A DNA stretch of 36,235 bases, from positions 1-36,235 of IMG/VR virus record IMGVR_UViG_3300040801_000596; one strand, given 5' to 3'. The position numbers were made by a program, and so were the translations under genes. Source of the DNA: a virus. Under the pieces are notes generated by a model. The model had not been told where the DNA came from and made no database searches. It saw only the letters and a list, made by a program, of their open reading frames with translations. Shown piece after piece: positions 6,647 to 36,051 of this stretch. The stretch's first letter is position 1; every line of letters begins with the position of its first letter.

Positions 6647-7015
6647 ATGTCCAAGGCTACCGCCACCGCCGACGCTGGTACTCTCTCGCTTGAGTCCCTG
6701 GGTATTGAGTTTGTCGATGAGTCCCAGGTTCCCGAGCCGCCCGCCCGTAAGGAGCGGCACGATGAGGTCTGGGCTGTTATTCAGGCAGTTTTCCCGCAGA
6801 ATCCTGGTCAGTGGGGCCGCGTTCTTACCTTTAACTATGCTACTGGCGCTGCTTCTCAGGCCAACAAGATTAACAAGGGTGAGAACAAGAAGTTCCCTGC
6901 CGATAAGTGGGAGGCTCGTTACGAGGTCACCGAGAAGGCTACTGAGGCCGACGAGGAGAATGGCGTCGAGGCTTCTAAGGGTGAGAGCGTTCTTTACATG
7001 CGCTACACTGGGTAA
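6647..7015 (+). CDS. Probably abundant hypothetical protein, GC-rich codons
   Basis: A 122-residue protein. The ATG follows TAGGAGGT at 6636-6643, a strong ribosome binding site. Its codons (GCC, ACC, CTC, GAG, AAG) are markedly more GC-rich than neighbouring accessory genes and resemble those of the SSB and capsid genes, suggesting high expression. The N-terminus is Ala/Thr-rich. The middle (RKERHDEVWAVIQAVFPQ, then NYATGAASQANKINKG) looks like a small helical domain, and the C-terminus is acidic before a final YMRYTG. I do not know the family. A DNA- or nucleoid-associated role is possible but not shown. Confidence 0.8.
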   Translation: MSKATATADAGTLSLESLGIEFVDESQVPEPPARKERHDEVWAVIQAVFPQNPGQWGRVLTFNYATGAASQANKINKGENKKFPADKWEARYEVTEKATEADEENGVEASKGESVLYMRYTG

Positions 7016-7055
7016 GTAGGCCCCAAGAGTATTTAGTCTCTATAAAAACTAAGGC

Positions 7056-7097
7056 GGGTTAAAGGCATACACTTAGGTTCGAGTCCTAAGAACCCAC
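7056..7097 (+). pseudogene. tRNA-like relic (T-arm and acceptor remnant)
   Basis: TTAGG-TTCGAGT-CCTAA at 7073-7089 is a perfect tRNA T-arm, followed by GAACCCA (7090-7096) as a 3' acceptor strand. The matching GGGTT lies only 16 bases before the T-arm, at 7056-7060. Between them, AAAGGCATACAC resembles the D-loop end of the tRNA-Leu at 10390. No anticodon arm fits. The simplest reading is a tRNA gene that has lost its D-stem, anticodon and variable arms. A tRNA 3' end used as an attachment site is an alternative, but no integrase is visible. Confidence 0.4.
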
Positions 7098-7100
7098 GGT

Positions 7101-7146
7101 AGGTAAGGTCCGGTAAGACGGCCATCTTATACGCCGGGCCTTACCT
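7101..7146 (+). other. Long stem-loop upstream of the HNH gene
   Basis: A 13-bp stem (7101-7113 with 7134-7146, one G-T pair) encloses a second 5-bp stem TAAGA/TCTTA (7114-7118 with 7125-7129) and a 4-base bulge. It sits 15 bases before the AGGAGG of the next gene. No T-run follows, so it is not a standard terminator. It may be an RNA-processing or translational control element, or a DNA replication structure. Confidence 0.5.
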
Positions 7147-7170
7147 CCGGGATTTTAACCAGGAGGTTAA

Positions 7171-7833
7171 GTGTCTGAAAAGTTCTGCTTTCCCTGCGGC
7201 CAAGGTTATCACTTTGAGTGTGAGAGCCATCCTTGTTGCTGCGGGGCTTTTTCGCGCCCAAAAACAGATACTTACTCTGATGAGCCTAAAACTCCCTCTA
7301 CTGGTAGTCGTGACGGTATGACGTGGAGTAAAGCTGACACAGATATTAAAGACCTCAAATCTACAGGGCGCAAAAGAGCAGCCAAACTATATCCACTGGA
7401 AAAGACTGAGCCGTGTGAGTGGATGAATCTTGCTTATGCTGGCGGAGGAATGTTCCCTATTCCTGGCTGCTTAGAAGCGAGTGGTACTCCTGGTAAACAA
7501 GAACACAGGCACCACGGCCCTATTCTTCTAACTACGGCTAACGTAGAAGGCAACGTACATAGAATTTGTACGGCGTGCCACAATCGTTGGCACAGTCTTA
7601 ATGACGCTTTCGTTAAGCGGTATATGTCCACTATTCTTTGGCGCGCCCATGATGCAGAGACTCTTCTTTCTGTAGATGAAATTGTGGAAATAGCCAAGTT
7701 AGGACATACAGAGTATGCAAGAGTTCGTCTTGCTCCTGTAGGTTATAACAAGACAGCCCACAACTACAAAGACTATCTCGAAGAACTACGAGAGAAAGGA
7801 GTAGAACTAGTAAATCCATATCTTGGTGTCTAA
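7171..7833 (+). CDS. HNH endonuclease-like protein
   Basis: A 220-residue protein with a GTG start 4 bases after AGGAGG (7161-7166). The N-terminus is cysteine-rich (CFPC at 6-9, CCC at 22-24). The HNH core is HRHHG at 112-116, then GNVHRICTACHNRWH at 127-141, with N128, H137 and H141 as likely catalytic or metal ligands. C82, C100, C133 and C136 could hold a structural zinc. The protein probably cuts or nicks DNA. It lies just after a tRNA-like relic and a long hairpin. It may be a homing-type or accessory nuclease; a packaging role is less likely because terminase is in the other arm. Confidence 0.75.
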   Translation: MSEKFCFPCGQGYHFECESHPCCCGAFSRPKTDTYSDEPKTPSTGSRDGMTWSKADTDIKDLKSTGRKRAAKLYPLEKTEPCEWMNLAYAGGGMFPIPGCLEASGTPGKQEHRHHGPILLTTANVEGNVHRICTACHNRWHSLNDAFVKRYMSTILWRAHDAETLLSVDEIVEIAKLGHTEYARVRLAPVGYNKTAHNYKDYLEELREKGVELVNPYLGV

Positions 7834-16006: not shown

Positions 16007-19000
16007 TCACTCTACACTATTAATTCTACGCAGACGCTTTAACTCGTCAAATTCCCCTGAGGTTTCATATTCGCCGCTCGGAATAAGACCCGTAGCGCCA
16101 CCCCAGTTAAGTGCGTCCATCCAAGCAGGGTTTTTGTTCTTAACGCCTAGACGGAATGCTTCACCAATAATAGGAATCTGCTCTAACAAGTAACTAGAAT
16201 AATCTGTGTATCGCGTATTCTTACTGTAGTCTCCGTGAATAGGTGCCCCAGTCCGTACTTCCCTATTAGCGGCCAACTCAAAGGGAACACGTAATGCCGG
16301 GCTTGTAGAACCGCCTAACTCTGCAAGTGCTTCTGGTAGGATTTCTCCGGGAGTATTAGCACTTCCAACCATAGTTCTTAACTGATCGATACCGGGAGTA
16401 GAAGGACCTAATCCAAGTAAAGAACCAAAAGCAGGATCATCAGGCCCACCTGTAGCAATCTTAGGTAACACCATCCAAGGAGAGTTTCTAATCCAGTCAG
16501 GATAGAATTGGTCACCAGGCAATTCACCTTCGGGATTAGTGGGGTCTACTGCATAACTTCCAGCACGCTGCATACGAGGATATGCAGTAGTTAAGGCTGG
16601 ACGCATAGCCATTGTTTGTAAAACTAATGGTGTGGCTTTGCGTAGCCAGGAATAGAAGGGAATAACTCGCCTACCTACAGAGCGCTCGAAGTTAGTCATA
16701 TCCAAACCATCAGGGTGCCACTTACGAGTACGGCGTGCTGCATGGTTAAAGATATACTCAGCAACCTTTTCGTCGCCTTCTTTAAGAATAGCCTTAGGAA
16801 CCTTTACAGTCCTAGTGGCTGCTAAGAAGTGGGCAAGTCTAACTGAGTGTTCTCGCGCTTCTGCTGTACCACTTGCTATGTCATGCCCTTTACCTCCTAG
16901 TGGCCGGATACCTGCAAGGCTCTCTCCAAAGTCAATTTTCTCTAAGCCTTTGTAGGTAATATCCTCAATGTTAGCCGCGCTCTGGAAAATACCCCTAGAG
17001 TGGGCGGCTGAGATAATCTCATGCTCAGTGAACTCTCTACCTGTAGCACTATTGCGGAACTTAAGAGGGCCGCTAGAAGCAGATTCTGCACCACCCTTAA
17101 GCATACCTTCGCGGGTCATGCCTCGAATGATTGCATCTTCCGGCTGCATATTACGCCAACGAGAACGGTTACGACTCATAATACGAAGAGCATTAGCATA
17201 GTCCATAGTCCTACCACCATCAGCAAGAAGGAGATAGAAGTCTCCAACTAAGTTACGAATGTGGTGAGCAGGACGATAGATAGTAACACCAGTTTTCCAC
17301 AGACGGAGACCAGTGTCATAAGTAGCCAGAATGTTGTTGTGAGTTAAGTTCTGTGCCTTCTTAAAGTTACGCAGAAGTTGATTAACTTCCTGAGCAATTT
17401 CTGGAAGAAGGTAAACATCTTCGCCGCCCTCAAAGTAAGGGTGACCTTTCACCTTAATCATACCAGGAGCAGCCTTAGTGTGACCAAAACGCACAACCAT
17501 ATCATCAAACAAAATACGCTCTGCGATGGCAGAATACATACCTTGCTCTACCCCATGTAAAGCACTAACAACGTCAGCAGCGTTTTCGTCAGTAATATTT
17601 GCAACAAGGTTGCGCCAAGACATATCCCAAGTACCGCCAGGAACGTCCTCAAACTGGAAGATTTTACCATCAGTACCCCTAACGCCCTTAGTGCGTAACC
17701 AGTAGTTAGCACGCTCTAAAGAGATACCCGTCTTGGATACTGTAGTGGTACCCTTACCGTAAGCCTGGAACAACTCACTTCTAAAGAACGTACCAATTAG
17801 CTGCTCGAACTGATTGTGAATAGCAATAGCCTCGTCAGAAAGAGTCTCTACAGGGAAAGAACCCTTAAGAGCATACGAGATTAAGCCTTCTTTAACCATA
17901 CTAGCATTTGCAGGGTCTTTGGCTAAGTCATGCAGAGTACGCCAATGCCTAGTAGAATAAGACTGAGCAGCCTGCATACGCCCAAAAGCATCCTGCTCAA
18001 TAGTACGAACATGAGGCATACGATAGTGTGGAATAAAAGCCTCTGCTAAACGAGCACCAATACTATTGTTAAAACTGTCTGGACTGACCGTTACTTCATC
18101 TACAGTAACAGGCTTAGCACCAGAAGCCCTAGCAACTTCTCTGGCAGCATTGTTATCGGCCTCATCTAACCTGCCGGCTACTCGCTTAGTAGTAACACCA
18201 ACAGCGTTCATAGTATTGATGCTACCTACAGAAGTAGTGTGAGCAGTAACTCCGGCAGCCTTCCCGGCTTTTTCTGCTACAGGAACAGAAATACCTGGCA
18301 TTAAACCAGCACTCTTAGCCGCTACCTCTTCTGCTTCGTCTACTACCTTAGCAACCTTAGCAGGACTGCCCTCAGTAATAACTTCATCTACATGCTTGGC
18401 GGCACTTTCTACAGCAGCAGGAACAGCAATCTGCTCTTGACGCTTAATCATATCGTCAACATAAGCAGTATTGTCCCATGAAGGGTACTTCTTAGCCCAC
18501 GCTGCTAATTCCTTCGGCAGAGTAGCAAGGTACTCTTCACCCTTATATAGAGCGGCGCTCGCAAGATGAATTAAACTAACTGTCGGCTCTGTAGGTGTTC
18601 CAATAAACAGCCTAGACAAAAGGTCTGGCCTAGCAATAGCCGAAATATGAGCACTAACGTCCGTAGTCGTGCCTCTAGCGACCCCGCCTAAATGCTCCAT
18701 CATAAGCCGCATAGAGAAGTACGGGTTAAGGTTATACGCTTGCTTAGGGTCAATCTTCTGTGACCAATTACCAGTAACAATGTCTAAGCGGTCACCGACG
18801 CTAGGAATGTGATAGCCACCATTAGCGCCCTTAGCCCTAGCAGTCTTACTTAAGCCATTCCAAACAGTAGGAGGATAAATCTTTTCCATTGCTCGTAAGG
18901 AAGCAATAGCGATGTTATACTCCATAGTAGAAATAACAGAAGCCTGAGCATCTAAACCCTCAACTGAACGAAGGCCGGTCATACGCTTACGCAAACCCTT

Positions 19001-21739
19001 AATGGCAGACTCTACAGTCTTTTGCTGCACCATCTGGTTAAAGTAGCGACCGCCTACCTTGCGAGCAGTATGCGTTAAATGCTTGTCTAGAGTATCTGTA
19101 ACAGCATCCTTTACGGCACCCCTAGCGATAGATAACCAAGCATCAGGATTATCCATACCAGAAATGAGTACGGGGTCTAACTCCTGCCAAATAGGGTCTG
19201 TACTATCCTGAATACGTCCCCTAAAGACTGCCTCAACTGTTTCAGGAGTAGAAGTAGCATTAACGGCCTTAGCCTTGTTTTCTGCTAACTCCATATCCTT
19301 AGCGACTTGAGCCTTAACATTCTCAAGAGTAGCCTCATCCTGCTTAACAGTAGCCTCTGCCATAGCATCATCAGCACGCTTGGCAGAATTCTCAGCAGCA
19401 GCCTGGTCGCCCTTCTGTAGAGCCTTGAGAGTGCGCTCAGCGCGTGTCATAGACTTCTTAGTGGCTTCGGCGCTTTGGGCAATAAGAGCCTCTGTATTAA
19501 GCACCGTAAGGCGAGACTGCAATTCAGCCGGAGACATAGCCTCCTGAGCAGCCTTACGCATAATGTCAGTAGCCTCAGTTAACCGGCCCATACTTAAGAA
19601 CTGCTTATCGGGGTCTGTAGTCCTGAGGAAATTCTGCCACTCTCTATCTAAGAATTCTCGGGCAGCATCAAAAGCAGCGTCGGCAACTTCGTCAGTAACA
19701 CCTAAGTAGTCAGTAACCTGGGCTTTCCACTGAGCCTTGTATTGCTCAAACTGACCCATGTAACCCTTTTGAATAGCAGCGTGCTGACGAGCAACTGCAT
19801 CTGCCCAACGCTTAGGATTAGCGCCAGAGGCTAAATCGTTAGTCTCTTCGATAGCCTTTGCCCACCACTTAGGGTCAGCAAGAGTCTTATCATCAATGCG
19901 CTTAACATCAGACAGTTTAGTCCAAGTACGCTCTCCGGTCTTACTGCCTACAGAAGTAAGAATTTCTAAATCTTCTAAACGATAGCGCATAAGATCATCA
20001 GGAGCAGACTGGGTACGGATAACGCTACCCTTAGTCATTAACTCCCAATACTCTTTAGCAGAGAAACCCTTTTTAGCAGTAGTACCTACAGGGCGCAGAG
20101 AGACACCAAACTCTTGTTTAGCCCGCTGGGGAGTTAATGGCAAACCAGAGTAAGGATTGCTAGACTGCTTAACCTTAAGCCGGAACTTCTCAGGATAGAG
20201 CGACCACGGAACATACTCGCCCTTGCGAGCAGTAGTAGTAGCAACCTCTTCCCAATTGCCTTCCTTAGTCCTTCGCAACTTAGTGCTGATAAAGGGGTTC
20301 ATAACTTCCTGGAAAGACTCACTAAAAGCAATCTCAGCAGGAGAGTCTAGTACGACTTTATCAACAGCACCAGTATTACGCAAAGCCTCAGCACTAGCAG
20401 GAGTAACGCTTACTTTACCATCTTTGACCTTATATGAAGCACTCATATTAAGGTCTAAAATACTGTCAGAAGCACTTCTCTGTAGGGAACCTAAGATTTC
20501 CTGCCCAAACTCACCCAACTGAGGATAGTCATAAGTAGAGTCCATCCTAATAATATCGCCCTCAGGAATAGTGTCAGGGTCAATATTATCAATCGACCGC
20601 TCAGGGCGAGCAAGCCTAACGGATACGCCTCCCTCTGTAGTTGCGAAAACATCTTCCACAGTCTCCATACGCTTAGGGTCTGGTAAAGCCTCCGCAGGAC
20701 TTCTACCTACAGGGGGCATAATTCCAGAGAATCTACGCAGGGCTTCTTCTTGTGCCCCGTCTAATGCCCATTGAGAAGGGTCAACGCCTTCTAACTTAGA
20801 AGGGTCTAAAGGACTGCTAGGAAACTCAACTTCTCCCCTAAGAAACTGCTCACGAACATTCTGAGCCTCGGCTAATTCAGCAATCTGTCGCTGAATTTCC
20901 TCGATCTGAGCGGTACTATCTACAGGAGCCTGAGCAGCAACTTGAGCAGGGGCAGCAGAAGTTGGGGCATTACTTAAGGGTTCGCTCGGAAACTCTTGGA
21001 AACCTTCTCGTTCCCAAGCCTGACGCTCTAAATCATCGGCCTTGTCTTTTAAGGCCATTTCCTTAACGCGGGGGTCAACAATAGGATTCTGCTGTAAAGC
21101 AACTTCCTCAGCAGTAGAAGCAGCGCGAGACTCTGCCGCCACACTTTCTAAGTCCTTAGTCCTAATCGCTTCTGGAACAGCTTTATTAGCACCGATCTTA
21201 CTTAAGCCTGCTCGAACAGCACCAACGCCTACATAAGAAAGAGGATCAGTAGCAATTTCACCAGCAAGGCTAGCACCAAAGCGAGCAGCAGGAGACCACT
21301 CACTTACGGTTGCAGGAGAGTTGTATTCATTTAAGGCTTCGGCAAAAGTAGTGTAACCTTCGCCACCAGGTAAAGCGCCCCTAACACCTTGTCCAAACTC
21401 TCCTAAGTTATTAACAGACCTACCGATAGACTCTACCTGCTGATTCCAAGATAAAGAAGCATCGTCGGCAAGACCATAGTCGCGCTTAGTTTCCTTAGCA
21501 CCTTCGATAAGCATAGCATTAGTGCCAGAGCCTAAAGCGCCAAGCGTATCAAGAATAGTCATTAATACGCCGCGCTCTTCTCCGCCAATGCTAGAAGAGG
21601 CTAATTGGTAATCAGAACCGGGCAGAGTACCGCCAGTTAACTCACCTGTACGAAAGGCTGCATTATTTTCACGCAGCCTACGCTGAACGACCTGATGCCG
21701 TAAATTCATCAGGTCGGTTCCAGTAACCCTACTGACCAT
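16007..21739 (-). CDS. Giant internal virion (ejection) protein
   Basis: A protein of about 1910 residues, the largest in the window, at the end of the structural operon where T7-like phages encode their largest ejection protein. ATG 21739 overlaps the upstream gene by 11 bases; GTG 21760 is possible but has no binding site. A long charged helical stretch, rich in Ala, Glu and Lys, lies around residues 690-830. Residues ~1430-1490 hold a NILATYDTGLRLWKTG...PAHHIRNLVGD block, and RRVIPFYSWLRKATPLVLQ near ~1690 resembles a motif I know from large virion proteins of other phages. I see no lysozyme or transglycosylase motif. It is expected to be packed in the head and ejected with DNA. Confidence 0.72.
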   Translation of the reverse strand: MVSRVTGTDLMNLRHQVVQRRLRENNAAFRTGELTGGTLPGSDYQLASSSIGGEERGVLMTILDTLGALGSGTNAMLIEGAKETKRDYGLADDASLSWNQQVESIGRSVNNLGEFGQGVRGALPGGEGYTTFAEALNEYNSPATVSEWSPAARFGASLAGEIATDPLSYVGVGAVRAGLSKIGANKAVPEAIRTKDLESVAAESRAASTAEEVALQQNPIVDPRVKEMALKDKADDLERQAWEREGFQEFPSEPLSNAPTSAAPAQVAAQAPVDSTAQIEEIQRQIAELAEAQNVREQFLRGEVEFPSSPLDPSKLEGVDPSQWALDGAQEEALRRFSGIMPPVGRSPAEALPDPKRMETVEDVFATTEGGVSVRLARPERSIDNIDPDTIPEGDIIRMDSTYDYPQLGEFGQEILGSLQRSASDSILDLNMSASYKVKDGKVSVTPASAEALRNTGAVDKVVLDSPAEIAFSESFQEVMNPFISTKLRRTKEGNWEEVATTTARKGEYVPWSLYPEKFRLKVKQSSNPYSGLPLTPQRAKQEFGVSLRPVGTTAKKGFSAKEYWELMTKGSVIRTQSAPDDLMRYRLEDLEILTSVGSKTGERTWTKLSDVKRIDDKTLADPKWWAKAIEETNDLASGANPKRWADAVARQHAAIQKGYMGQFEQYKAQWKAQVTDYLGVTDEVADAAFDAAREFLDREWQNFLRTTDPDKQFLSMGRLTEATDIMRKAAQEAMSPAELQSRLTVLNTEALIAQSAEATKKSMTRAERTLKALQKGDQAAAENSAKRADDAMAEATVKQDEATLENVKAQVAKDMELAENKAKAVNATSTPETVEAVFRGRIQDSTDPIWQELDPVLISGMDNPDAWLSIARGAVKDAVTDTLDKHLTHTARKVGGRYFNQMVQQKTVESAIKGLRKRMTGLRSVEGLDAQASVISTMEYNIAIASLRAMEKIYPPTVWNGLSKTARAKGANGGYHIPSVGDRLDIVTGNWSQKIDPKQAYNLNPYFSMRLMMEHLGGVARGTTTDVSAHISAIARPDLLSRLFIGTPTEPTVSLIHLASAALYKGEEYLATLPKELAAWAKKYPSWDNTAYVDDMIKRQEQIAVPAAVESAAKHVDEVITEGSPAKVAKVVDEAEEVAAKSAGLMPGISVPVAEKAGKAAGVTAHTTSVGSINTMNAVGVTTKRVAGRLDEADNNAAREVARASGAKPVTVDEVTVSPDSFNNSIGARLAEAFIPHYRMPHVRTIEQDAFGRMQAAQSYSTRHWRTLHDLAKDPANASMVKEGLISYALKGSFPVETLSDEAIAIHNQFEQLIGTFFRSELFQAYGKGTTTVSKTGISLERANYWLRTKGVRGTDGKIFQFEDVPGGTWDMSWRNLVANITDENAADVVSALHGVEQGMYSAIAERILFDDMVVRFGHTKAAPGMIKVKGHPYFEGGEDVYLLPEIAQEVNQLLRNFKKAQNLTHNNILATYDTGLRLWKTGVTIYRPAHHIRNLVGDFYLLLADGGRTMDYANALRIMSRNRSRWRNMQPEDAIIRGMTREGMLKGGAESASSGPLKFRNSATGREFTEHEIISAAHSRGIFQSAANIEDITYKGLEKIDFGESLAGIRPLGGKGHDIASGTAEAREHSVRLAHFLAATRTVKVPKAILKEGDEKVAEYIFNHAARRTRKWHPDGLDMTNFERSVGRRVIPFYSWLRKATPLVLQTMAMRPALTTAYPRMQRAGSYAVDPTNPEGELPGDQFYPDWIRNSPWMVLPKIATGGPDDPAFGSLLGLGPSTPGIDQLRTMVGSANTPGEILPEALAELGGSTSPALRVPFELAANREVRTGAPIHGDYSKNTRYTDYSSYLLEQIPIIGEAFRLGVKNKNPAWMDALNWGGATGLIPSGEYETSGEFDELKRLRRINSVE

Positions 21740-23147
21740 AGTAACCAGTATCCTGTCCACGTCGAACGTAGGGGAGAATATCGTACTCGCTTAAGTAGCG
21801 CTGTAATTCAGGAGTTGCAGCAAGAGTATCAGCCATAGTACGGGCTAACTGCTCAGGGCTAACAACATTTGTACGGCTAATAACTGCCTGTTCTAACTGA
21901 CGTGCAGCCTGAGCCTTCTGCCTAGCCTCCGTGTCAGTAAAGCCCTCACCTAATAACTGGTTATAGAATCCCTGCTGCTGAGCATCAAAACCACTAGGCT
22001 CTTGTGCCTCGCCAGGGCCATACATATCGTTAAACATAGCAAAAGCATTCATACGTTCAGAAGGACTTAAACCTCCGGCGCCAGCCTCCCCAGGAACATA
22101 CTGTGGCTGATTCTCTGCATTAAACCTAGCAGCCTGCATCTGCATATCGGCGTTCTGAGAAGCGACACTAGCCTGGGCACGGAACTTATCCATTAGCATA
22201 CCAGCATACTGACCGTACTGCTGATTATACATATTCTGCCCTTGCATTAAAGCCTCAAGCATAGCGGAACCTTGAGTCTGTTGAGCCTGAGCAATACGTC
22301 CCTGATTACGGAAGATTAACTCGTTAACACGCTCCTGTAGAAGAGCAATATCAGCAGCCGCAGCAGTATCCTGAATACCCGCAATAGTGTCTGCGTAGTT
22401 GGCAGCGTTACTGCTCTGCTCTGCAATCATATTACCAACAAGAGAACCTTCGGCACCTACAGTAGCCTGAGACTCAGAAGCCCTATCCTGAATAGCCTGA
22501 GTATCAGTATCTCCGCGTAACTCGCGTAAACCTAAACGCTCTAGATTACTCTGCATTTCTCCTTGGCTTTCGCCCGCAGAGGCTTCTAATGCGCCAATAA
22601 TATCCTGCACACCCTGAGACTGTGCAGCAGAAGTTTCCTGAGCGCCAGTACGAATACGCCCAGCAGTATCAACCCAAGACTGTTCCGCAATATTGCGAAG
22701 GTCTCGAATCTCTCCTGAGTTAGCCTCCTGGCGCTTTTCGTAGTATGGCGTAACAGACTTGCCAAAATCAATCATAGGCTGATATGCCTTCTGAGCGGCA
22801 GTCTGAAACTGGTTAGCCATATTAGTAGGTGCAGCAGGAAGATTAATGTTAGGCATAGCAATCTGCGGTGCGTTAATACGAGCACCACCAGTCATATACC
22901 CGCCAGAACCAGGAGTAGACGGCCCAGCAACAAAGTTCATAAAGTCGTCTAAATTCATCTGAGACTGACTAGAGCCACTAGCACCTAAACGTCGCTGAGC
23001 AGCACTCTGCATAGAAGTAGGATTAACAGGGGCAGGAGCAGGAGTATTGCCCCTAAAAAGTCCCCGAGTAAAGTTTACAATACCATTAACGATATCTTCA
23101 CCAGGGCTACCAATATCCCACCAGCCGCGCTTTTCTCTCTCAACCAT
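21729..23147 (-). CDS. Internal virion protein, Gln/Ala-rich
   Basis: A 472-residue protein. The N-terminus carries a Pro-rich linker (APAPVNPT) and a short PQIAMPNINLPAAP motif. Residues ~110-330 are a long, low-complexity helical region rich in Ala, Gln, Ser and Glu, and the end (YDILPYVRRGQDTGYYGQ) is polar. No enzymatic motif is seen. It overlaps both neighbours by a few bases and lies between another low-complexity protein and the giant protein, matching the group of ejection proteins in short-tailed phages. A tail or scaffold role is less likely. Confidence 0.65.
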   Translation of the reverse strand: MVEREKRGWWDIGSPGEDIVNGIVNFTRGLFRGNTPAPAPVNPTSMQSAAQRRLGASGSSQSQMNLDDFMNFVAGPSTPGSGGYMTGGARINAPQIAMPNINLPAAPTNMANQFQTAAQKAYQPMIDFGKSVTPYYEKRQEANSGEIRDLRNIAEQSWVDTAGRIRTGAQETSAAQSQGVQDIIGALEASAGESQGEMQSNLERLGLRELRGDTDTQAIQDRASESQATVGAEGSLVGNMIAEQSSNAANYADTIAGIQDTAAAADIALLQERVNELIFRNQGRIAQAQQTQGSAMLEALMQGQNMYNQQYGQYAGMLMDKFRAQASVASQNADMQMQAARFNAENQPQYVPGEAGAGGLSPSERMNAFAMFNDMYGPGEAQEPSGFDAQQQGFYNQLLGEGFTDTEARQKAQAARQLEQAVISRTNVVSPEQLARTMADTLAATPELQRYLSEYDILPYVRRGQDTGYYGQ

Positions 23148-23899: not shown

Positions 23900-24093
23900 T
23901 ACAACCACCTTTTAGCATCTGGATGATTATAGTTTCCTGTAATCATTTTCTGTAATCTTTTAAGTACGGCGTTTCGACGGACCTGTGCCTGCCTGTCCCT
24001 CTCAGCATACCCCATCGGGTCTACAGGACCGATATTGGGGGCCGACCTTCCCCCGCCATAATACTTTTTGCCGGCAGAATAGGGATTAAACAT
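23899..24093 (-). CDS. Small basic virion-region protein
   Basis: A 64-residue protein coupled by TAATG to the fibre gene before it and to the gene after it. The N-terminus is Gly/Tyr-rich (YSAGKKYYGGGRSAP), followed by a basic helix (RDRQAQVRRNAVLKRLQKM). It might be a minor virion component or assembly factor. No family is recognised. Confidence 0.62.
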   Translation of the reverse strand: MFNPYSAGKKYYGGGRSAPNIGPVDPMGYAERDRQAQVRRNAVLKRLQKMITGNYNHPDAKRWL

Positions 24094-25670
24094 TATGGTC
24101 CTACCCTCTCTAATGCTATGTAAGATACATAGATGCCCGAAGTGTTATCACCTTCAGCGGTTAACTGTATTTCTAAGGGAGTTATGGCACCTACAGGAAC
24201 AGAAGTATATGCGGCATAGACTTGGTTTTTCTGTGTCTCAGTCCAAGCAGACCCTATTGCTCTATGGTTTAAAAAGGTTTGAGATAGGCTAGTTGAGTCA
24301 GGATGGGTGTCTAAACTTTTATAAATAAAGAAAGAATTAGCATCTGTAAACCTAATTCTAGTAAAGCAGTATTGAGTATCCATGTTTGCTAGTCTTACAA
24401 GTACGCTAGCGTTCTCAAACCAATCAGGACTATCTACTTCTGCAACTCTAACTAGTCCAAAGTTTGCAGAAGCAATAAATTCTCCTGTTCGCCAGTAGAT
24501 AGGATTAGAGTCATCTAAAGGATTGTCCCAAGAGCCGCTAATATCAAAAGATACACTATTGTCTATTCGTACTGAACTAGGCACTATTAACTGAGAACAG
24601 TTATATGGGATTACATACCCGAAACTTTCCCAGTAGGGGTCAAACTCGTAGTCTAAGCCTGCTCTACTAATACCTACTCTAGAATCATCTAAGAAATATA
24701 CATTATCTGTAACGCTTGGGTGTGGCGCATAAGTAGCATCTTTAGCAGAGTCTGGAATAGCAATAATGCCGCCTTTAAGGTCTACGCTTTGTCTATAAGC
24801 ACCTAAACGGACTCTATACGCATCAAAAAAATCTGGACTTTCGATTGTATTAATGTAGATAGGTAGCCAGTTATCAGAAAACTGTTGTCCTGGAAATACG
24901 GTGGTACTTGCATCTACACCGTTAAAACTCCAAGACATTTGGTTAATTTGATAAGTATCTCCGTCGCCAGTATATGGCTGAATTAAATACATTTCTTCTG
25001 ATAAAGATATATCATAAACATTAGGTAAGAAAAGCAATCGTACACGTAATTGACTAGCGTTAGTATTTAACTCTATAGTTTCTCTGCCATCGTAGTACCA
25101 AACATTAGGACTAAAATCAGTTGGGTTAGAAGTATAGCCTGCTACAACGGGATTTGCTCCACCGCCAAAAGATACAGAATGTCCCCATACGTCAATAGGG
25201 TCCCCGCCAGGGCATAAACCTTCGTAAGTACCTTGCCATCTAAAAGTGTAAGCACCTACAACCATATCTCCAGGCATAACGCTAGGAGGCATAGGTATAC
25301 TATATCCATCTGCTTCTGCATCCCAATATATTTCCGTTATAGGTCTTGTAGCACAGCGAGAATACACCGGAGTATAGAAAGTACCACCGGGCCAAGTCCA
25401 GGGAGGGATAAAGCCGCCAGGAACAATAGTAACGCCGTAATTACCTACTAAATCCCAAATCTTGTTGATCTGATCTTGAGGGTCTGTAGGGTCAATAACT
25501 ACTTCGATACCATTAAATAAAGGAACACTGTTAGGATCACTCTTAGAGTGGTTGTGGTTACCAGGACTTAACTGAAATCGTCCAGTACCTAAAGTATGGT
25601 GCCCGGCTAAAGTAGAACTGTCGTGGTCCTCATGTATATGCTCTACAGGGAAGGGAGTATTCTCAGTCAC
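24093..25670 (-). CDS. Tail fibre/receptor-binding protein paralogue B
   Basis: A 525-residue protein starting with GTG, whose GTGA overlaps the previous stop. Residues 16-84 contain STLAGHHTLGTGRFQLSPGN and DPNSVP, matching the first fibre gene at 49 of 69 positions. The rest is beta-rich with many aromatic and Ser/Asp residues and no similarity to the first gene that I can see. The shared N-terminus is probably the attachment domain and the C-terminus probably binds the host surface. Glycan binding is possible, but no catalytic motif is visible. Confidence 0.72.
   Translation of the reverse strand: MTENTPFPVEHIHEDHDSSTLAGHHTLGTGRFQLSPGNHNHSKSDPNSVPLFNGIEVVIDPTDPQDQINKIWDLVGNYGVTIVPGGFIPPWTWPGGTFYTPVYSRCATRPITEIYWDAEADGYSIPMPPSVMPGDMVVGAYTFRWQGTYEGLCPGGDPIDVWGHSVSFGGGANPVVAGYTSNPTDFSPNVWYYDGRETIELNTNASQLRVRLLFLPNVYDISLSEEMYLIQPYTGDGDTYQINQMSWSFNGVDASTTVFPGQQFSDNWLPIYINTIESPDFFDAYRVRLGAYRQSVDLKGGIIAIPDSAKDATYAPHPSVTDNVYFLDDSRVGISRAGLDYEFDPYWESFGYVIPYNCSQLIVPSSVRIDNSVSFDISGSWDNPLDDSNPIYWRTGEFIASANFGLVRVAEVDSPDWFENASVLVRLANMDTQYCFTRIRFTDANSFFIYKSLDTHPDSTSLSQTFLNHRAIGSAWTETQKNQVYAAYTSVPVGAITPLEIQLTAEGDNTSGIYVSYIALERVGP
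25419..25625 (-). repeat. Fibre N-terminal adaptor, copy B
   Basis: This codes for residues 16-84 of the second fibre-like protein. Aligned without gaps to 26831-27037, 49 of 69 residues are identical, including the HHTLG and PGNH motifs. The duplication is limited to the N-terminal domain. Confidence 0.85.
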
Positions 25671-27094
25671 CTAGCCCACCCCGCTCTTAACTGGATATTG
25701 TCCCTATCGTCTGTGTAGGCTAAGATAAAGTATCCCTCAGTAAGACCGGCAACCCCGTAGTTACCCCAGGGCTGAGCAGCCATAAAGTCTGCTTCATCGT
25801 AAGTGTCGTCTAGGCTATTGTAGTAGACAAGTCTAATAAAACTGTTATCTCTAAATAGCCCTAATACAAATCCTCGTAGTCCCTCGGCTAACCAGTTAAA
25901 GTGATTAAAGTAGTCTACATGAGCAGCCTCAACGACATAAAAACCGTTTAAAGAAGGAGTAGGTAAAGGCCCAGCAATAGGTACATTCTCAAATACATCT
26001 AAACGCCTACCTGTATCTTCTCCGGCAATAGTAAAAGTGCCAGAAGTACGTCCAGGCATTAAAGCACTTTCACGCCAAACATCGGATGGATCATACCCTG
26101 CAAAACTAATAGTATTGTCTAAAGTAAATTGAGTAGACCAGTCTGTTGACCAAATCTGTACCTCGGTACTATCTCTTACAGCGCACTTATTTGCTTCTCC
26201 TGTTATGGCTGTGATATTGCCACTTTGCGCGGCTAATCTGTAATCGTTAAACCCAGTCGGAGAAGATACTGTAGTGATAGTCGGGGAAGCACCATCACTA
26301 GCAATATCTATAAAGTACGTTTCGCTAGGGTCTCCACCATTACTAGCAGTCCATACAATAGCCGCTTTGCCTTGACCGTTAGTAAATACGCCATAGTTGC
26401 CATAGTAACCTGTGGGTAAAGCCGTAACAGTAACTTGTAGATCATCACTTGCTTGCAAGACCCAGCCTGTAATTTCTCCATTAGCCCCTAATAGTCTAGG
26501 TAAAACAATAGCACCATTACCTACACTATGAGGTCTATTAGTAACTACATACCTATCTCCTGTAGCCACCGTAACTACAGGACCTGTTAGTACTTCCCCA
26601 GCAGAGTTAGGGTCAAGAGTAACTGCCATAGCAAATATCTTGCCAACGTCTGTAGAGAAGTTTTGATCTGACCAAACTACAATAGCGATACCTGGCTTTG
26701 CTGTAGCAATAAAAAGACCATCAATTTCTTGCTGAGTATACTCTGAAGCAATAACAGTCTCTAACTCAGATAGGCCAAACTCTACACCGCCTACGTCCCA
26801 GTTGACGGGAGGCCATACCCAAGGATAGTTAGGAATCACTGTAACTCCGTACTGACCAAATAAATCCCAAAGAGCGTCTAGTTGGCTCTGAATATCTGTA
26901 GGGTCAATAGTAACATCAATGCCGGTAAAGATAGGAACACTATTGGGATCGTTTACAGAATGAGTATGATTACCGGGCGAACCCTGAAAACGATAAGTCC
27001 CTAAAGTATGGTGACCGGCTAATGTCGAAGCATCATGGTCACTATCGGAGTGCTCATTAGGAAGGGGAGAGCCTGCCCCCGCTGGTGGCCTCAT
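25667..27094 (-). CDS. Tail fibre/receptor-binding protein paralogue A
   Basis: A 475-residue protein. Residues 20-88 form the adaptor shared with the next gene; histidines (HH, NHTH) in this motif could bind metal along a trimer, as in other fibre repeats. The remainder is beta-rich, with repeated short strands and Gly/Asn turns that could form a beta-propeller or sandwich. The ATG overlaps the upstream stop (ATGA), with no strong binding site, so translation is probably coupled. Receptor binding is inferred from domain layout and position after the nozzle gene. Confidence 0.72.
   Translation of the reverse strand: MRPPAGAGSPLPNEHSDSDHDASTLAGHHTLGTYRFQGSPGNHTHSVNDPNSVPIFTGIDVTIDPTDIQSQLDALWDLFGQYGVTVIPNYPWVWPPVNWDVGGVEFGLSELETVIASEYTQQEIDGLFIATAKPGIAIVVWSDQNFSTDVGKIFAMAVTLDPNSAGEVLTGPVVTVATGDRYVVTNRPHSVGNGAIVLPRLLGANGEITGWVLQASDDLQVTVTALPTGYYGNYGVFTNGQGKAAIVWTASNGGDPSETYFIDIASDGASPTITTVSSPTGFNDYRLAAQSGNITAITGEANKCAVRDSTEVQIWSTDWSTQFTLDNTISFAGYDPSDVWRESALMPGRTSGTFTIAGEDTGRRLDVFENVPIAGPLPTPSLNGFYVVEAAHVDYFNHFNWLAEGLRGFVLGLFRDNSFIRLVYYNSLDDTYDEADFMAAQPWGNYGVAGLTEGYFILAYTDDRDNIQLRAGWAR
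26831..27037 (-). repeat. Fibre N-terminal adaptor, copy A
   Basis: This codes for residues 20-88 of the first fibre-like protein and is the partner of 25419-25625. The conserved core is STLAGHHTLGT, PGNH, DPNSVP, IDPTD and YGVT. Confidence 0.85.
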
Positions 27095-31855: not shown

Positions 31856-32014
31856 TTACTTCTTCTCAGTCTTAGTGTCAGCCTTTACCGGAGGCTTACG
31901 TCCAACAGCATCAAAAGTAACGGGAGAAGTACGCGCATTGTGATTACCGCCCGACTGGTCGGAACCCTCATTAACAGGCGAAACTCCTAGAACCTTAACC
32001 TTCTTAGTAACCAT
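31856..32014 (-). CDS. Small basic protein between portal and scaffold
   Basis: A 52-residue protein starting MVTKKVKVLGVSP. ATG 32014 is chosen because GGAGGG lies 7 bases upstream; a longer in-frame start would run into the portal gene. It is rich in Lys, Ser, Asn and Pro and ends in KADTKTEKK. It is probably mostly unfolded. It may be a head-interior or assembly factor, but nothing specific is seen. Confidence 0.65.
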   Translation of the reverse strand: MVTKKVKVLGVSPVNEGSDQSGGNHNARTSPVTFDAVGRKPPVKADTKTEKK

Positions 32015-32015
32015 A

Positions 32016-34058
32016 CTACATTCCCTCCAAGGGTTGTCCACCTGCCGGTGGCGCTTGTTCTGTCTCCATGTTACCCTGGCCCGGCTCCATCGGCATCATA
32101 CCTGCGGCCATTTGCTGCATCATTAAAGCCTGGTCGTGCATAGAAACGTGATCCTGAAATGCGGCCTTAATAATATCCGGGAGAGCCTCAAAAGTTTGGC
32201 TCTTCCTGAAATTATTGTGAACCTCAATATGAACAGCATGGTTATCCCAGTCATTAACCGGGACCGGCGGGGGAACAGGGGGAATATTCTGTGCCCCGGA
32301 AGCCACAGCCTGCTCATAGATTTGAATAGCCATACCGTACTGCTCAATAACTTCCATAGGCATACCTTGAATCCTAAGATTCTCTCGCTGAGCCTGCCTA
32401 CGGTCAACCTGAATCTGGTCGTACAACTTATTGAGTCCGCCAACTTCCATTAACTCTAGACCCCGATCAGATGAGATAAAGCCCATCTTCATGAGGTCCA
32501 TTAAGAATGCCTGCTTAGCGCTACGAGAAGTAGGTAACGCTGAGTCCTTCTCTACTCGGATATCTGTGTTGCCATTTAACTGAGCGCCCTCAAAGACTTT
32601 AGCGTCAAAACTACCATCAGTACCTGTGACTTTAACCATTCGCGGAGTGTCCCAAAACTGCACGACTAGAGATAGGCTAATCTTAGCAATCTTTTCTGCG
32701 GCAGTCTCAATCTCTCTAACAGTAGACGATAACATAGTATCGTCCTGCTCCTGTAGATAAGAAATTGCTGTAGCCGCACTAACACCAGGAGGAACAGTTC
32801 CTCTAGAAACATCGTGCTGACCGGAAATATCGTCCATATCTTCTTTAATCCGCTGAGTCTCATCAATCACATACTGAGGAAGAGGCTGCAACGGTAAAGG
32901 AGAGGGCGGAGGTAAGCCGATACGATAAAAGATTACCTGTCCAGGTTCCGTAGTAATCTTAGAAGCATCAATAGAACCCTTAGCAGCAAGCAACTGAGGC
33001 TTAGCCATACGGTTCTTTGCTTCCTGAATCTGGCCCCTGGTGCGATTAAACTCTCGCTGTGGAGAGATTAAGTCGTTAATAACGCTATCCCTGTAGAACC
33101 CACCAGTATCAATGTGCCCAATGTGAGCGTAAGGATACTTGTTGTGGGAGTAAGGGTGGCCCTTAATATATTGCACTAACTGGTCATTAACTAGGGTTAC
33201 CATACCGCCTTCGGGAAAGAGTTTAAACTGTCCCGGCTTAATCCACATTTCTACAACTTCGACAGATTCTAACGGCGGGTCCTCTGCTCCAATTAACTTT
33301 AAGAAGCCTGAATCCATAATAGCATCAGAGCGACCAGAAGCCTGGATAGGCTCAGTAACCTTATCTCCCCAGTTTAACTGTGCCCACTCTAGATCACGCA
33401 TCTGTGCTTCGATAACGTAAGGCTGCTTCTCAATATCTTCGACAGTAAGGCTAGGAACAAAGATGCTAAAAGGATTGATAGCGTAGTAGGCTAAATCACC
33501 TAAAACTGTAGGGTTATCAGGGTCAATAGCCGTGGGGTCCCAGTAAGCCTTGATAAACGAATTGCCTGTAATACTAGTCCAAAAAGCAGCCGACCGAATA
33601 ATCTTATGTAACTTGTGCTTGTCGTACAGACTCTCCCAAATATTCTGACCAGCCTGTGCCGCAAACAAATCCTGATCTTCTGAGGAAGCAGGAACAACAT
33701 AAGCCGTAGGTTCCGTACTTAGAAGTTTAGCCAACTCCCTACGAATGATAGGCTTAATCTTGTTAATAACAGGTCGTGCCCGCCAATAAGGAGCCTGGGG
33801 AGTATTTAACCTAAAGCCAGCGGTACGGCTATAGGATAAAGACACATTCTGCTTGCCGAAGTAAAAGGCTAAATTAACGTACCACTGAGCCTCCTGCTTG
33901 TGCCGAGTATCCTTACACTTCTGGTACTGCTTACGCACAAAACTAACAATCTCAGCACGCTCAGACGGCTTTAACTGAGTTAACACATCAGGAGCCAATT
34001 CTGGACGTGCTACAGGCTCAGAAAGTGAGGCCGAGGCTTCTAAGGTCGGAATCGTCAT
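32016..34058 (-). CDS. Portal protein
   Basis: A 680-residue protein. Its size, place after terminase, and core (ARPVINKIKPIIRRELAKLL, then AFWTSITGNSFIKAYWDP and YAINPFSIFVP) fit the portal family of short-tailed phages. A helical region rich in Arg/Glu (RTRGQIQEAKNRMAKPQ, EIETAAEKIAKISL) matches the stem and wing. The C-terminus is rich in Met, Gln and Pro and likely flexible. It would form the dodecameric DNA gateway and bind terminase, scaffold and adaptor. It overlaps the upstream gene by 41 bases. The binding site is GGAGATAAGG. Confidence 0.88.
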   Translation of the reverse strand: MTIPTLEASASLSEPVARPELAPDVLTQLKPSERAEIVSFVRKQYQKCKDTRHKQEAQWYVNLAFYFGKQNVSLSYSRTAGFRLNTPQAPYWRARPVINKIKPIIRRELAKLLSTEPTAYVVPASSEDQDLFAAQAGQNIWESLYDKHKLHKIIRSAAFWTSITGNSFIKAYWDPTAIDPDNPTVLGDLAYYAINPFSIFVPSLTVEDIEKQPYVIEAQMRDLEWAQLNWGDKVTEPIQASGRSDAIMDSGFLKLIGAEDPPLESVEVVEMWIKPGQFKLFPEGGMVTLVNDQLVQYIKGHPYSHNKYPYAHIGHIDTGGFYRDSVINDLISPQREFNRTRGQIQEAKNRMAKPQLLAAKGSIDASKITTEPGQVIFYRIGLPPPSPLPLQPLPQYVIDETQRIKEDMDDISGQHDVSRGTVPPGVSAATAISYLQEQDDTMLSSTVREIETAAEKIAKISLSLVVQFWDTPRMVKVTGTDGSFDAKVFEGAQLNGNTDIRVEKDSALPTSRSAKQAFLMDLMKMGFISSDRGLELMEVGGLNKLYDQIQVDRRQAQRENLRIQGMPMEVIEQYGMAIQIYEQAVASGAQNIPPVPPPVPVNDWDNHAVHIEVHNNFRKSQTFEALPDIIKAAFQDHVSMHDQALMMQQMAAGMMPMEPGQGNMETEQAPPAGGQPLEGM

Positions 34059-34317
34059 CCTTATCTCCCGTTAGTTTCTCATATTGTAGGGCCTCAGATA
34101 CATCATCTTTAGCAAGGTAAACTTCTTCATCGTATTCCTGGGGGCTAATCGTCTGCTGTAACGTCGAGAACACTAATGGGTCGCCGGACACTACTAAGTT
34201 TGTCAGCGTCTGATTCTGCCGAATCACCAGCGTTATCAAAAAGACTAGACTGCCCGTTAGCAACAGGGATAGGACGCTCAGCACGCCTAAGAGCGTCCAA
34301 GTAACTGTCTCTGTCAT
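34018..34317 (-). CDS. Membrane protein overlapping out of frame with its neighbour
   Basis: A 99-residue protein. Its ATG at 34317 has a perfect AGGAGG 6 bases upstream, although this lies inside the 34145-34552 gene. Residues 7-32 form one long membrane segment, followed by a polar and then acidic C-terminal domain (DKDDDSDLRSLG). It overlaps the upstream gene by 173 bases in another frame and the portal gene by 41 bases. The membrane segment is encoded almost wholly within the overlap. A holin- or spanin-like role can be imagined, but no lipobox, partner or endolysin is seen. Confidence 0.65.
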   Translation of the reverse strand: MTETVTWTLLGVLSVLSLLLTGSLVFLITLVIRQNQTLTNLVVSGDPLVFSTLQQTISPQEYDEEVYLAKDDVSEALQYEKLTGDKDDDSDLRSLGLTF

Positions 34318-34552
34318 TTGTAACCTCCTGTAGTTCTTTCGTTAACTCTGAAACACGCTTAGTCAACTTCGCAACCTTGTCACCTTCGAGATTATCAATC
34401 ATATCACGGAGACAAAGTTCGCATAGATAGACCACGCCGTAGTAGTCTAAATTAAGGCCGAAGTCATAATACCTACGCTTATTTCCTCCATAGCCACAAG
34501 AGGCATTAGAGCAAACAGCCGGCATAGCCAAAGGCTGAGTTACAAATCCCAT
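34145..34552 (-). CDS. Zinc-ribbon and coiled-coil protein after terminase
   Basis: A 135-residue protein coupled to the terminase stop by TAATG. C14/C19 and C44/C47 form a zinc-ribbon-like site. Residues ~56-92 form a coiled coil (VAKLTKRVSELTKELQEV). The C-terminal part is acidic and probably unstructured, and it is this part that is overlapped by the membrane protein gene. It may assist terminase or portal, as inferred only from position. Confidence 0.72.
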   Translation of the reverse strand: MGFVTQPLAMPAVCSNASCGYGGNKRRYYDFGLNLDYYGVVYLCELCLRDMIDNLEGDKVAKLTKRVSELTKELQEVTNDRDSYLDALRRAERPIPVANGQSSLFDNAGDSAESDADKLSSVRRPISVLDVTADD

Positions 34553-36051
34553 TACCAGATACCTCCAACGTATTCATCAATTGCGCTTACTTCTTGATTA
34601 GGGTACTGCGGGGCCGATAGTTGCCAGTCCCTATCGGTGGCATACGGTACTGCCTCTGGCATAGCCAAGGTATCACGGTTTTGGGCAGAGGCCGGGCTTT
34701 GCGGGTCATAGGAAAGATCGGGAACCATAGAAAAGAAATACCTGGCAGAGTCACAAGCGTGGTCATTTTTCTTTTCGATTACTTCATGCTTGTTATATTT
34801 TTCTGCGGTTCGTTTATTCTGCCATGTTTTCCAGCGAAGCCGTTGCATTTCTGAAATTAAATTAGGACAGTCCTCAGTAATTTGCCATTGTTTCTGTGCT
34901 AAATATCCTTGGATTTTAGCAACTCCGGCTTGTACCTCATTGCCGCCAGGTACAATATAAATACCGTGCTTAGCGTATTCCTCAAAAATAGAGGTTCCAG
35001 TAGCGCCATTACGCTGAGCCATAGCAGGGTCACCTACAGTAACGTCAACTGGCCTACCAAAAGCAACTGTCATAGCATTAATGTAAGCAGCGTGCTGGGC
35101 TACTGTCATTTCAGACTGATAGTGTTCATGGAAAGTCATAACATACCCTGTAGGTGATACTGCGTGCCACAAACATGCAGTAGGATTGTTATATCCATGA
35201 TCTATAGAGAGATACCACTCCCAGTCTAACGGGGGCTTACTTGGCTTGATAACATGAATTTCTTGCTGAAATTTCTTGTAGACCAAACCACCAATCTGAA
35301 CGAACGTACCGTGAATACGTGCGTCTTGTTCATCTTGATCTAGTAAGCCTAAGAACCTATTAATCTCACCAGGAGACAGATAAGGGTTCTCTGTCATATC
35401 AACTTCGATAACCCCAATGTTAGGGTCTTTCTTCTTCTTGGCTCTTTCATAAATATCATCATAAACCCAGGTCATACCTTCGACCGGAGTCATAGTAAGC
35501 CAAACCCTACCACCAGTATCAACAACACGAGCCTGGTTCTCAATATAGATTGACTTAGGCGGCTCTTCATCAAAGTGAACAAAGTGTCGTGATGTTCCTG
35601 CAAACTTTTCTAACTTTTGCTCATAGCCCATAAACTCAATAGTAGAACCATTTGCTAGTGTTAAAACTCTATCGCCTTTAGAGTACGAATCTTCCCAAGA
35701 ACCATTAGTTAACTCAGACAAAGGTAACCACTGAGCAAACAAAGGTAAGATAATCTGCTCAATACCCTGAATATAGTCAACTGCAATAACACGTCCCCGA
35801 ACAGGGGGCGGGGGAGTCTCAATATAAGGATGCTTTCCTGTAGCCCACCAAATATCTTCGACTACCCCACCCACTGACTTCCCTGATCGGTTACCTCCAA
35901 TATACAAACGAGTTTGCCTATCCATACCGTGAAAGGCTAACTGCTTCTTGTGTGGTTCATAGTTAATAATACTTGGGGCCGAAGCAGCGCGAAGCAGCAA
36001 CGTACCCAACTGATCGTTAAGATCAATTCTCGGTGCTTGCTTCTTTGCCAT
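34552..36051 (-). CDS. Terminase large subunit
   Basis: A 499-residue packaging motor. The ATPase domain has Walker A GGNRSGKS (52-59) and Walker B FVHFDEE (D161, E162), with TMTP near 187-189 as the coupling motif. The RNase H-type nuclease domain has D284 (LSIDHGY), D341 (VGDPAM) and D434 (HACDSARYFF). It cuts concatemeric DNA and pumps it through the portal encoded two genes later. The small subunit is not visible and may lie beyond the right edge. The gene begins inside the end of the upstream partial gene. Confidence 0.95.
   Translation of the reverse strand: MAKKQAPRIDLNDQLGTLLLRAASAPSIINYEPHKKQLAFHGMDRQTRLYIGGNRSGKSVGGVVEDIWWATGKHPYIETPPPPVRGRVIAVDYIQGIEQIILPLFAQWLPLSELTNGSWEDSYSKGDRVLTLANGSTIEFMGYEQKLEKFAGTSRHFVHFDEEPPKSIYIENQARVVDTGGRVWLTMTPVEGMTWVYDDIYERAKKKKDPNIGVIEVDMTENPYLSPGEINRFLGLLDQDEQDARIHGTFVQIGGLVYKKFQQEIHVIKPSKPPLDWEWYLSIDHGYNNPTACLWHAVSPTGYVMTFHEHYQSEMTVAQHAAYINAMTVAFGRPVDVTVGDPAMAQRNGATGTSIFEEYAKHGIYIVPGGNEVQAGVAKIQGYLAQKQWQITEDCPNLISEMQRLRWKTWQNKRTAEKYNKHEVIEKKNDHACDSARYFFSMVPDLSYDPQSPASAQNRDTLAMPEAVPYATDRDWQLSAPQYPNQEVSAIDEYVGGIW

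Follow-up and report, generated by a model that had tools for sequence, protein, structure and literature searches.

Can one stretch of phage DNA between the terminase and portal genes encode two proteins in different frames, and if so, which of them is the older and what might the second one do? The question is raised by IMG/VR virus record IMGVR_UViG_3300040801_000596, of which a stretch of 36,235 nt (the window) was analysed here.

Gene arrangement between terminase and portal

On the minus strand of the window, a gene for the large terminase subunit (34552..36051; PF03237, 2e-9; phrog_2, 2e-34) is followed by a gene for a 135-residue protein with a zinc-ribbon-like N-terminus, termed ZR (34145..34552), by a gene for a 99-residue protein with a single transmembrane (TM) segment, termed MP (34018..34317), and by a P22/SU10-like portal gene (32016..34058; PF16510, 4e-24; phrog_156, 1.6e-49). 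The assignment of ZR draws on the open reading frame, its homologues and an AlphaFold model, and that of MP on the same sources and on the ratio of nonsynonymous to synonymous change (omega). MP lies in the +1 frame with respect to ZR, and the two genes share 173 nt (34145..34317), in which the end of the ZR coiled coil and the entire ZR tail are encoded by the same nucleotides as MP residues 1-57. These coordinates agree with an original prediction, made from the DNA alone, that the first 173 bases of a 99-residue frame lie in another frame inside a 135-residue gene. The perfect AGGAGG that the prediction placed before the shorter frame is present at 34324-34329, as part of a Shine-Dalgarno sequence, AGGAGGT (34323..34329), that lies within the ZR coding sequence and ends 5 nt upstream of the MP ATG. 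At its other end, MP overlaps the start of the portal gene by 41 nt (34018..34058).

Several other features of the window were recorded. The 3' end of the portal gene has a 26-nt overlap with a 61-residue ORF (31856-32041), and the virion gene region holds a 1917-residue ORF (16007-21760) with no Pfam match. Two adjacent proteins (24093-25670 and 25667-27094) have near-duplicate starts of the form DASTLAGHHTLGT...SPGNHxHS; a motif akin to this one, HHTLG...SxGxHxHDG, occurs in small ORFs upstream of the terminase gene in three related loci (L011:1972-2304, L013:3651-3971 and L014:2962-3279).

Features of the two proteins

Four cysteine columns of ZR, C14, C19, C44 and C47, are conserved among 40 relatives. 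The AlphaFold model of ZR contains strands at residues 28-35 and 39-44 and helices at 45-54 and 57-91, the last of them the putative coiled coil, followed by a disordered tail (residues 92-135) with a pLDDT of about 55. The name zinc ribbon is given on account of the conserved paired cysteines and the modelled beta-hairpin; ZR has no consistent family match in Pfam, PHROGs, NCBIfam or the PDB. A fold search of the PDB found nothing, and the best viral match in the fold search (E 1.1e-3, of borderline significance) is as long as the ZR protein of Cellulosimicrobium phage DS1. Thus the earlier description of this protein as a zinc ribbon with a coiled coil holds for the paired cysteines, the hairpin and the coiled coil, but finds no counterpart among Pfam or PHROG zinc-ribbon families. 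In the ZR homologues of Jasmine-type phages and of Microbacterium phage Shocker (L098:2654-3334, L100:2396-2773, L101:2565-3248 and L103:2632-3312) the zinc-ribbon cysteines have been lost and the overlap with MP has been retained. A KSTSSSGR-type patch present in some ZR tails was considered as a ZR feature and set aside; it faces the conserved motif of MP in the other frame and is more plausibly an out-of-frame shadow of that motif.

MP is modelled as one long N-terminal helix (AlphaFold residues 2-44) that carries a membrane segment and is followed by an acidic tail. The membrane segment (approximately residues 8-32; 34222..34296), located by hydrophobicity and flanking charge, lies wholly within the overlap, and its Kyte-Doolittle maximum of 2.46 bears out the N-terminal membrane segment of the original prediction. 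Also within the overlap is a conserved juxtamembrane motif (34156..34206), found by alignment and dual-frame read-out, with the consensus LLNRLxSxDxxTFxxLQ and the sequence LTNLVVSGDPLVFSTLQ in the window. Lysine and arginine are richer after than before the membrane segment in 94 of 98 loci, which favours a predicted N-out/C-in topology; with this charge bias, the conserved motif is expected on the cytoplasmic side. No consistent match for MP, and none to a family of known function, came from Pfam, PHROGs, NCBIfam or the PDB; one member matched a membrane-protein PHROG weakly.

Distribution of the overlap among related phages

Terminase and portal searches, together with phage records, yielded 103 distinct loci with enough upstream sequence, and homologues of both ZR and MP are present in 98 of them. 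In all 98 the MP start lies inside ZR in the +1 frame, and the overlaps span 122-332 nt, with a median near 222. The start codon is ATG in 88 of the 98, and a Shine-Dalgarno sequence is often present; matches of at least 5 nt are modestly enriched (0.45 vs 0.22), which is weak evidence because the starts were chosen partly by Shine-Dalgarno score. The five remaining loci are those of Shocker, in which the ZR/MP pair is present and ZR is too diverged for the profile; ctEqG8, with an ORF in the MP frame that lacks a TM segment; and three distant phages (L181, L182 and L184), with MP-like ORFs and no overlapping ZR. In three relatives, which form one well-supported subclade, ORFs without a TM segment occupy the place and frame of MP over ZR (L186:2079-2423, L188:2087-2401 and L102:2607-2891); profile comparison found no homology between these ORFs and MP, the match being one of place and frame only.

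A search of a phage collection with the locus DNA and a search of IMG/VR with MP alone returned nothing beyond the identical contig. Nonetheless, judged from the terminase and portal relatives, the overlapping gene for a predicted membrane protein is confirmed to extend well beyond the window to a large phage group. At least 545 portal relatives are found in public data, so that a portal-adjacent gene is added to a group with hundreds of members. Metagenome contigs make up most of the relatives, and where hosts are known, those of the overlap clade are mostly actinobacteria.

Selection on the MP frame

Given the ZR protein, an MP frame at the window locus would stay open by chance with a probability of about 0.07, which falls to 0.014 if a membrane-like segment is also required; on its own this locus is only suggestive evidence for MP. 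Across relatives the picture is much sharper. When ZR codons were resampled synonymously, an open MP frame was expected in 5.7 of 90 loci and observed in all 90, and an open frame with a membrane-like segment was expected in only 1.7 of the 90, although the loci share ancestry and per-locus counts are not fully independent. In none of the 98 loci does the third forward frame stay open across the overlap, and one antisense frame is open in 30. Stops in the 99-residue frame of close relatives, which the original prediction had said to look for, were not found.

The second check that it proposed, synonymous constraint, gave an equally clear result. In 23 pairs, with every sequence used once, divergence at fourfold-degenerate third positions of ZR is 0.423 outside and 0.114 inside the overlap, a ratio of 0.27 (bootstrap 0.17-0.37); variation in the overlap is thus about 27% of that in ZR-only sequence. 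When substitutions were counted by their effect in both frames in 13 pairs, omega of MP within the overlap was 0.36 (0.28-0.41), and MP is clearly under purifying selection. Taken together with the evidence on the ZR tail given below, the sequences indicate that both frames almost certainly code.

A proposed history and role

In the explanation that we favour, MP would be a small protein of long standing that crosses the membrane once and is encoded close to the portal gene. The ZR gene would have arrived just upstream of MP in the ancestor of a large podovirus clade, whose hosts are mostly actinobacteria where these are known, and overprinting would have lengthened the C-terminal tail of ZR across the 5' half of MP, in the other frame. 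MP would be translated from a start codon of its own within ZR. The MP product would sit in the host membrane and expose its conserved C-terminal part to the cytoplasm, where it would tether or nucleate portal, procapsid or packaging components, and ZR may be its cytoplasmic partner. Taken whole, as two real genes, a ZR tail laid over an older MP and a putative portal role at the membrane, this explanation is assigned a probability of roughly 0.78.

Its functional component is held far more tentatively. MP lies beside the portal gene in the ingroup and in most outgroup loci, and this position is only suggestive of a role in assembly of the portal or packaging complex at the membrane. A precedent exists in phage T4, whose gp40 acts at the inner membrane as a chaperone of portal assembly (PMC9958956, PMC4493910). 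MP would act alike, as a membrane-located aid to portal assembly, a functional parallel with no claim of kinship; unlike MP, gp40 has no known overlapping zinc-ribbon gene. From gene position, predicted topology and this analogy, a portal-assembly role for MP is possible, on balance doubtful. More speculative still is a broader proposal: that MP stands for a family, common yet so far missing from annotations, of membrane anchors that face the cytoplasm and seed the assembly of portals or packaging complexes at the membrane in P22/SU10-like podoviruses, the overprinted ZR tail being a partner encoded together with MP.

A lysis function for MP, as a holin or spanin-like protein encoded outside the usual lysis cassette, is an unlikely alternative. 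The small size of MP and its one N-terminal TM helix with a helical region behind it would suit such a protein, as would the weak match of one member to a membrane-protein PHROG. The neighbourhood speaks against it: MP adjoins the portal gene rather than an endolysin gene or lysis cassette, and two relatives (L025 and L028) encode an amidase and then a multi-TM ORF just upstream of the terminase gene, an arrangement that lowers the likelihood of MP being a holin. Shocker likewise has an annotated peptidase and membrane protein just upstream of its terminase gene, and the amidase of DS1 is encoded elsewhere, on the other strand. The remark in the original prediction that the interval between terminase and portal is not the usual place for lysis genes fits the amidase and multi-TM protein upstream of the terminase in some relatives.

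The comparison with spanins is instructive, because Rz/Rz1 spanin genes also overlap, and in both systems a small membrane protein is encoded in a different frame over another gene. MP and ZR differ from Rz and Rz1 in predicted topology, in neighbourhood and in the lack of a lipoprotein partner, and the TM protein is the product of the downstream gene. The predicted N-out/C-in orientation of MP is opposite to that of an i-spanin, whose C-terminus lies outside, and ZR has neither the lipobox of an o-spanin partner nor, by eye, a signal sequence; its conserved cysteines are paired in the manner of zinc ligands. Known actinobacterial hosts, moreover, have no Gram-negative outer membrane, which counts against a spanin-like MP.

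Probable origin and direction of overprinting

The original prediction held that one of the two genes probably arose by overprinting; the relatives support this and add a direction. MP-like proteins with the same kind of motif occur alone in the Bacillota-type loci L181, L182 and L189-L194, and in L184. They are usually encoded just before the portal gene, with MP directly after the terminase gene in L190 and more than 1 kb from the portal gene in L194. On a portal tree, whose outgroup branches are long and whose root was assumed, all MP-alone rows fall outside the overlap clade, on one side of one branch, and a single origin of the overlap is required. Because MP occurs alone in the outgroup, the ZR tail is read as overprinted on MP, and MP is most probably the older gene.

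The reverse order, a younger MP overprinted inside an older ZR gene, is quite improbable. It would account for the location of the MP start within ZR throughout the overlap clade, and the TM-less variants of three relatives might be taken for a forerunner; those variants, however, sit within the TM-bearing overlap clade, where the tree places one change to the TM-less state, and every sampled outgroup lineage has MP without ZR, usually next to the portal gene and with a motif of the same DLLDRLMARD type. With the ZR tail as the overprinted part, the ZR/MP pair would offer an unusually clear natural example of overprinting whose origin can be polarised, with a membrane segment under purifying selection lying over a freely varying disordered tail.

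Two further proteins were noted in these loci. A small basic protein (HPGFKAVAAxIAKxxGxP...) is encoded near the terminase and portal genes in both ingroup and outgroup (L011:1781-1975 and L191:2288-2452), and an ORF between terminase and MP in the Bacillota-type locus L193 (1829-2152) has a GGQ sequence and, by eye, resembles a peptide-chain release factor.

Maintenance of the ZR tail and probable mode of MP translation

Overprinting of the ZR tail raises the issue of whether the tail itself is selected. MP might be the only functional product of the overlap, with the ZR frame open by happenstance. In keeping with that possibility, fourfold-degenerate divergence of MP is alike inside and outside the overlap (0.307 and 0.312, a ratio of 0.99), the ZR tail has an omega of 0.74, whose interval reaches above one (0.51-1.22; 13 pairs), and the tail is predicted to be disordered. 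Yet when MP codons were resampled synonymously, an open ZR frame was expected in 2.8 of 90 loci and observed in all 90, whereas stops should have shortened a neutral tail in many lineages. In addition, fourfold wobble bases of MP are shifted towards G (+0.26) and away from T (-0.24) inside the overlap relative to outside it (P ~1e-17), as expected if these wobble bases double as first positions of ZR codons. An unselected tail is therefore improbable. The ZR C-terminus is kept open and hydrophilic and is otherwise variable, and since the omega interval extends to 1.22, the exact sequence of the tail may matter little.

Programmed frameshifting to yield a ZR-MP fusion, for which the fixed +1 relation in every locus might be cited, is highly improbable given that MP has its own start codon (ATG in most loci), followed at once by the TM segment and often preceded by a Shine-Dalgarno sequence, and that it is a separate gene in the outgroups.

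Annotation of the overlap in isolated phages

At MP, the annotations of isolated phages, Jasmine and Shocker among them, are in error. Arthrobacter phage Jasmine resembles the window in gene order and in the +1 overlap, there of 329 nt, between gp13 and an ORF (7005-7460) for a TM-bearing MP homologue that starts at position 7005 of NC_041875; it differs in that gp13 has no zinc-binding cysteines and in that MP is unannotated. The same frame is unannotated beneath the ZR and portal genes in all eight Jasminevirus records, at 88.7-100% identity to that of Jasmine. Gene numbering in the Jasmine record jumps from 13 to 15, which suggests, without proving, that a gene 14 was once called there. DS1 has the overlap as in the window, and MP is missing from its annotation. 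In Shocker the overlap, between gp18 and gp19, is likewise as in the window, and gp19 is annotated from a start 99 nt downstream of that of MP, with the result that the membrane segment is lost.
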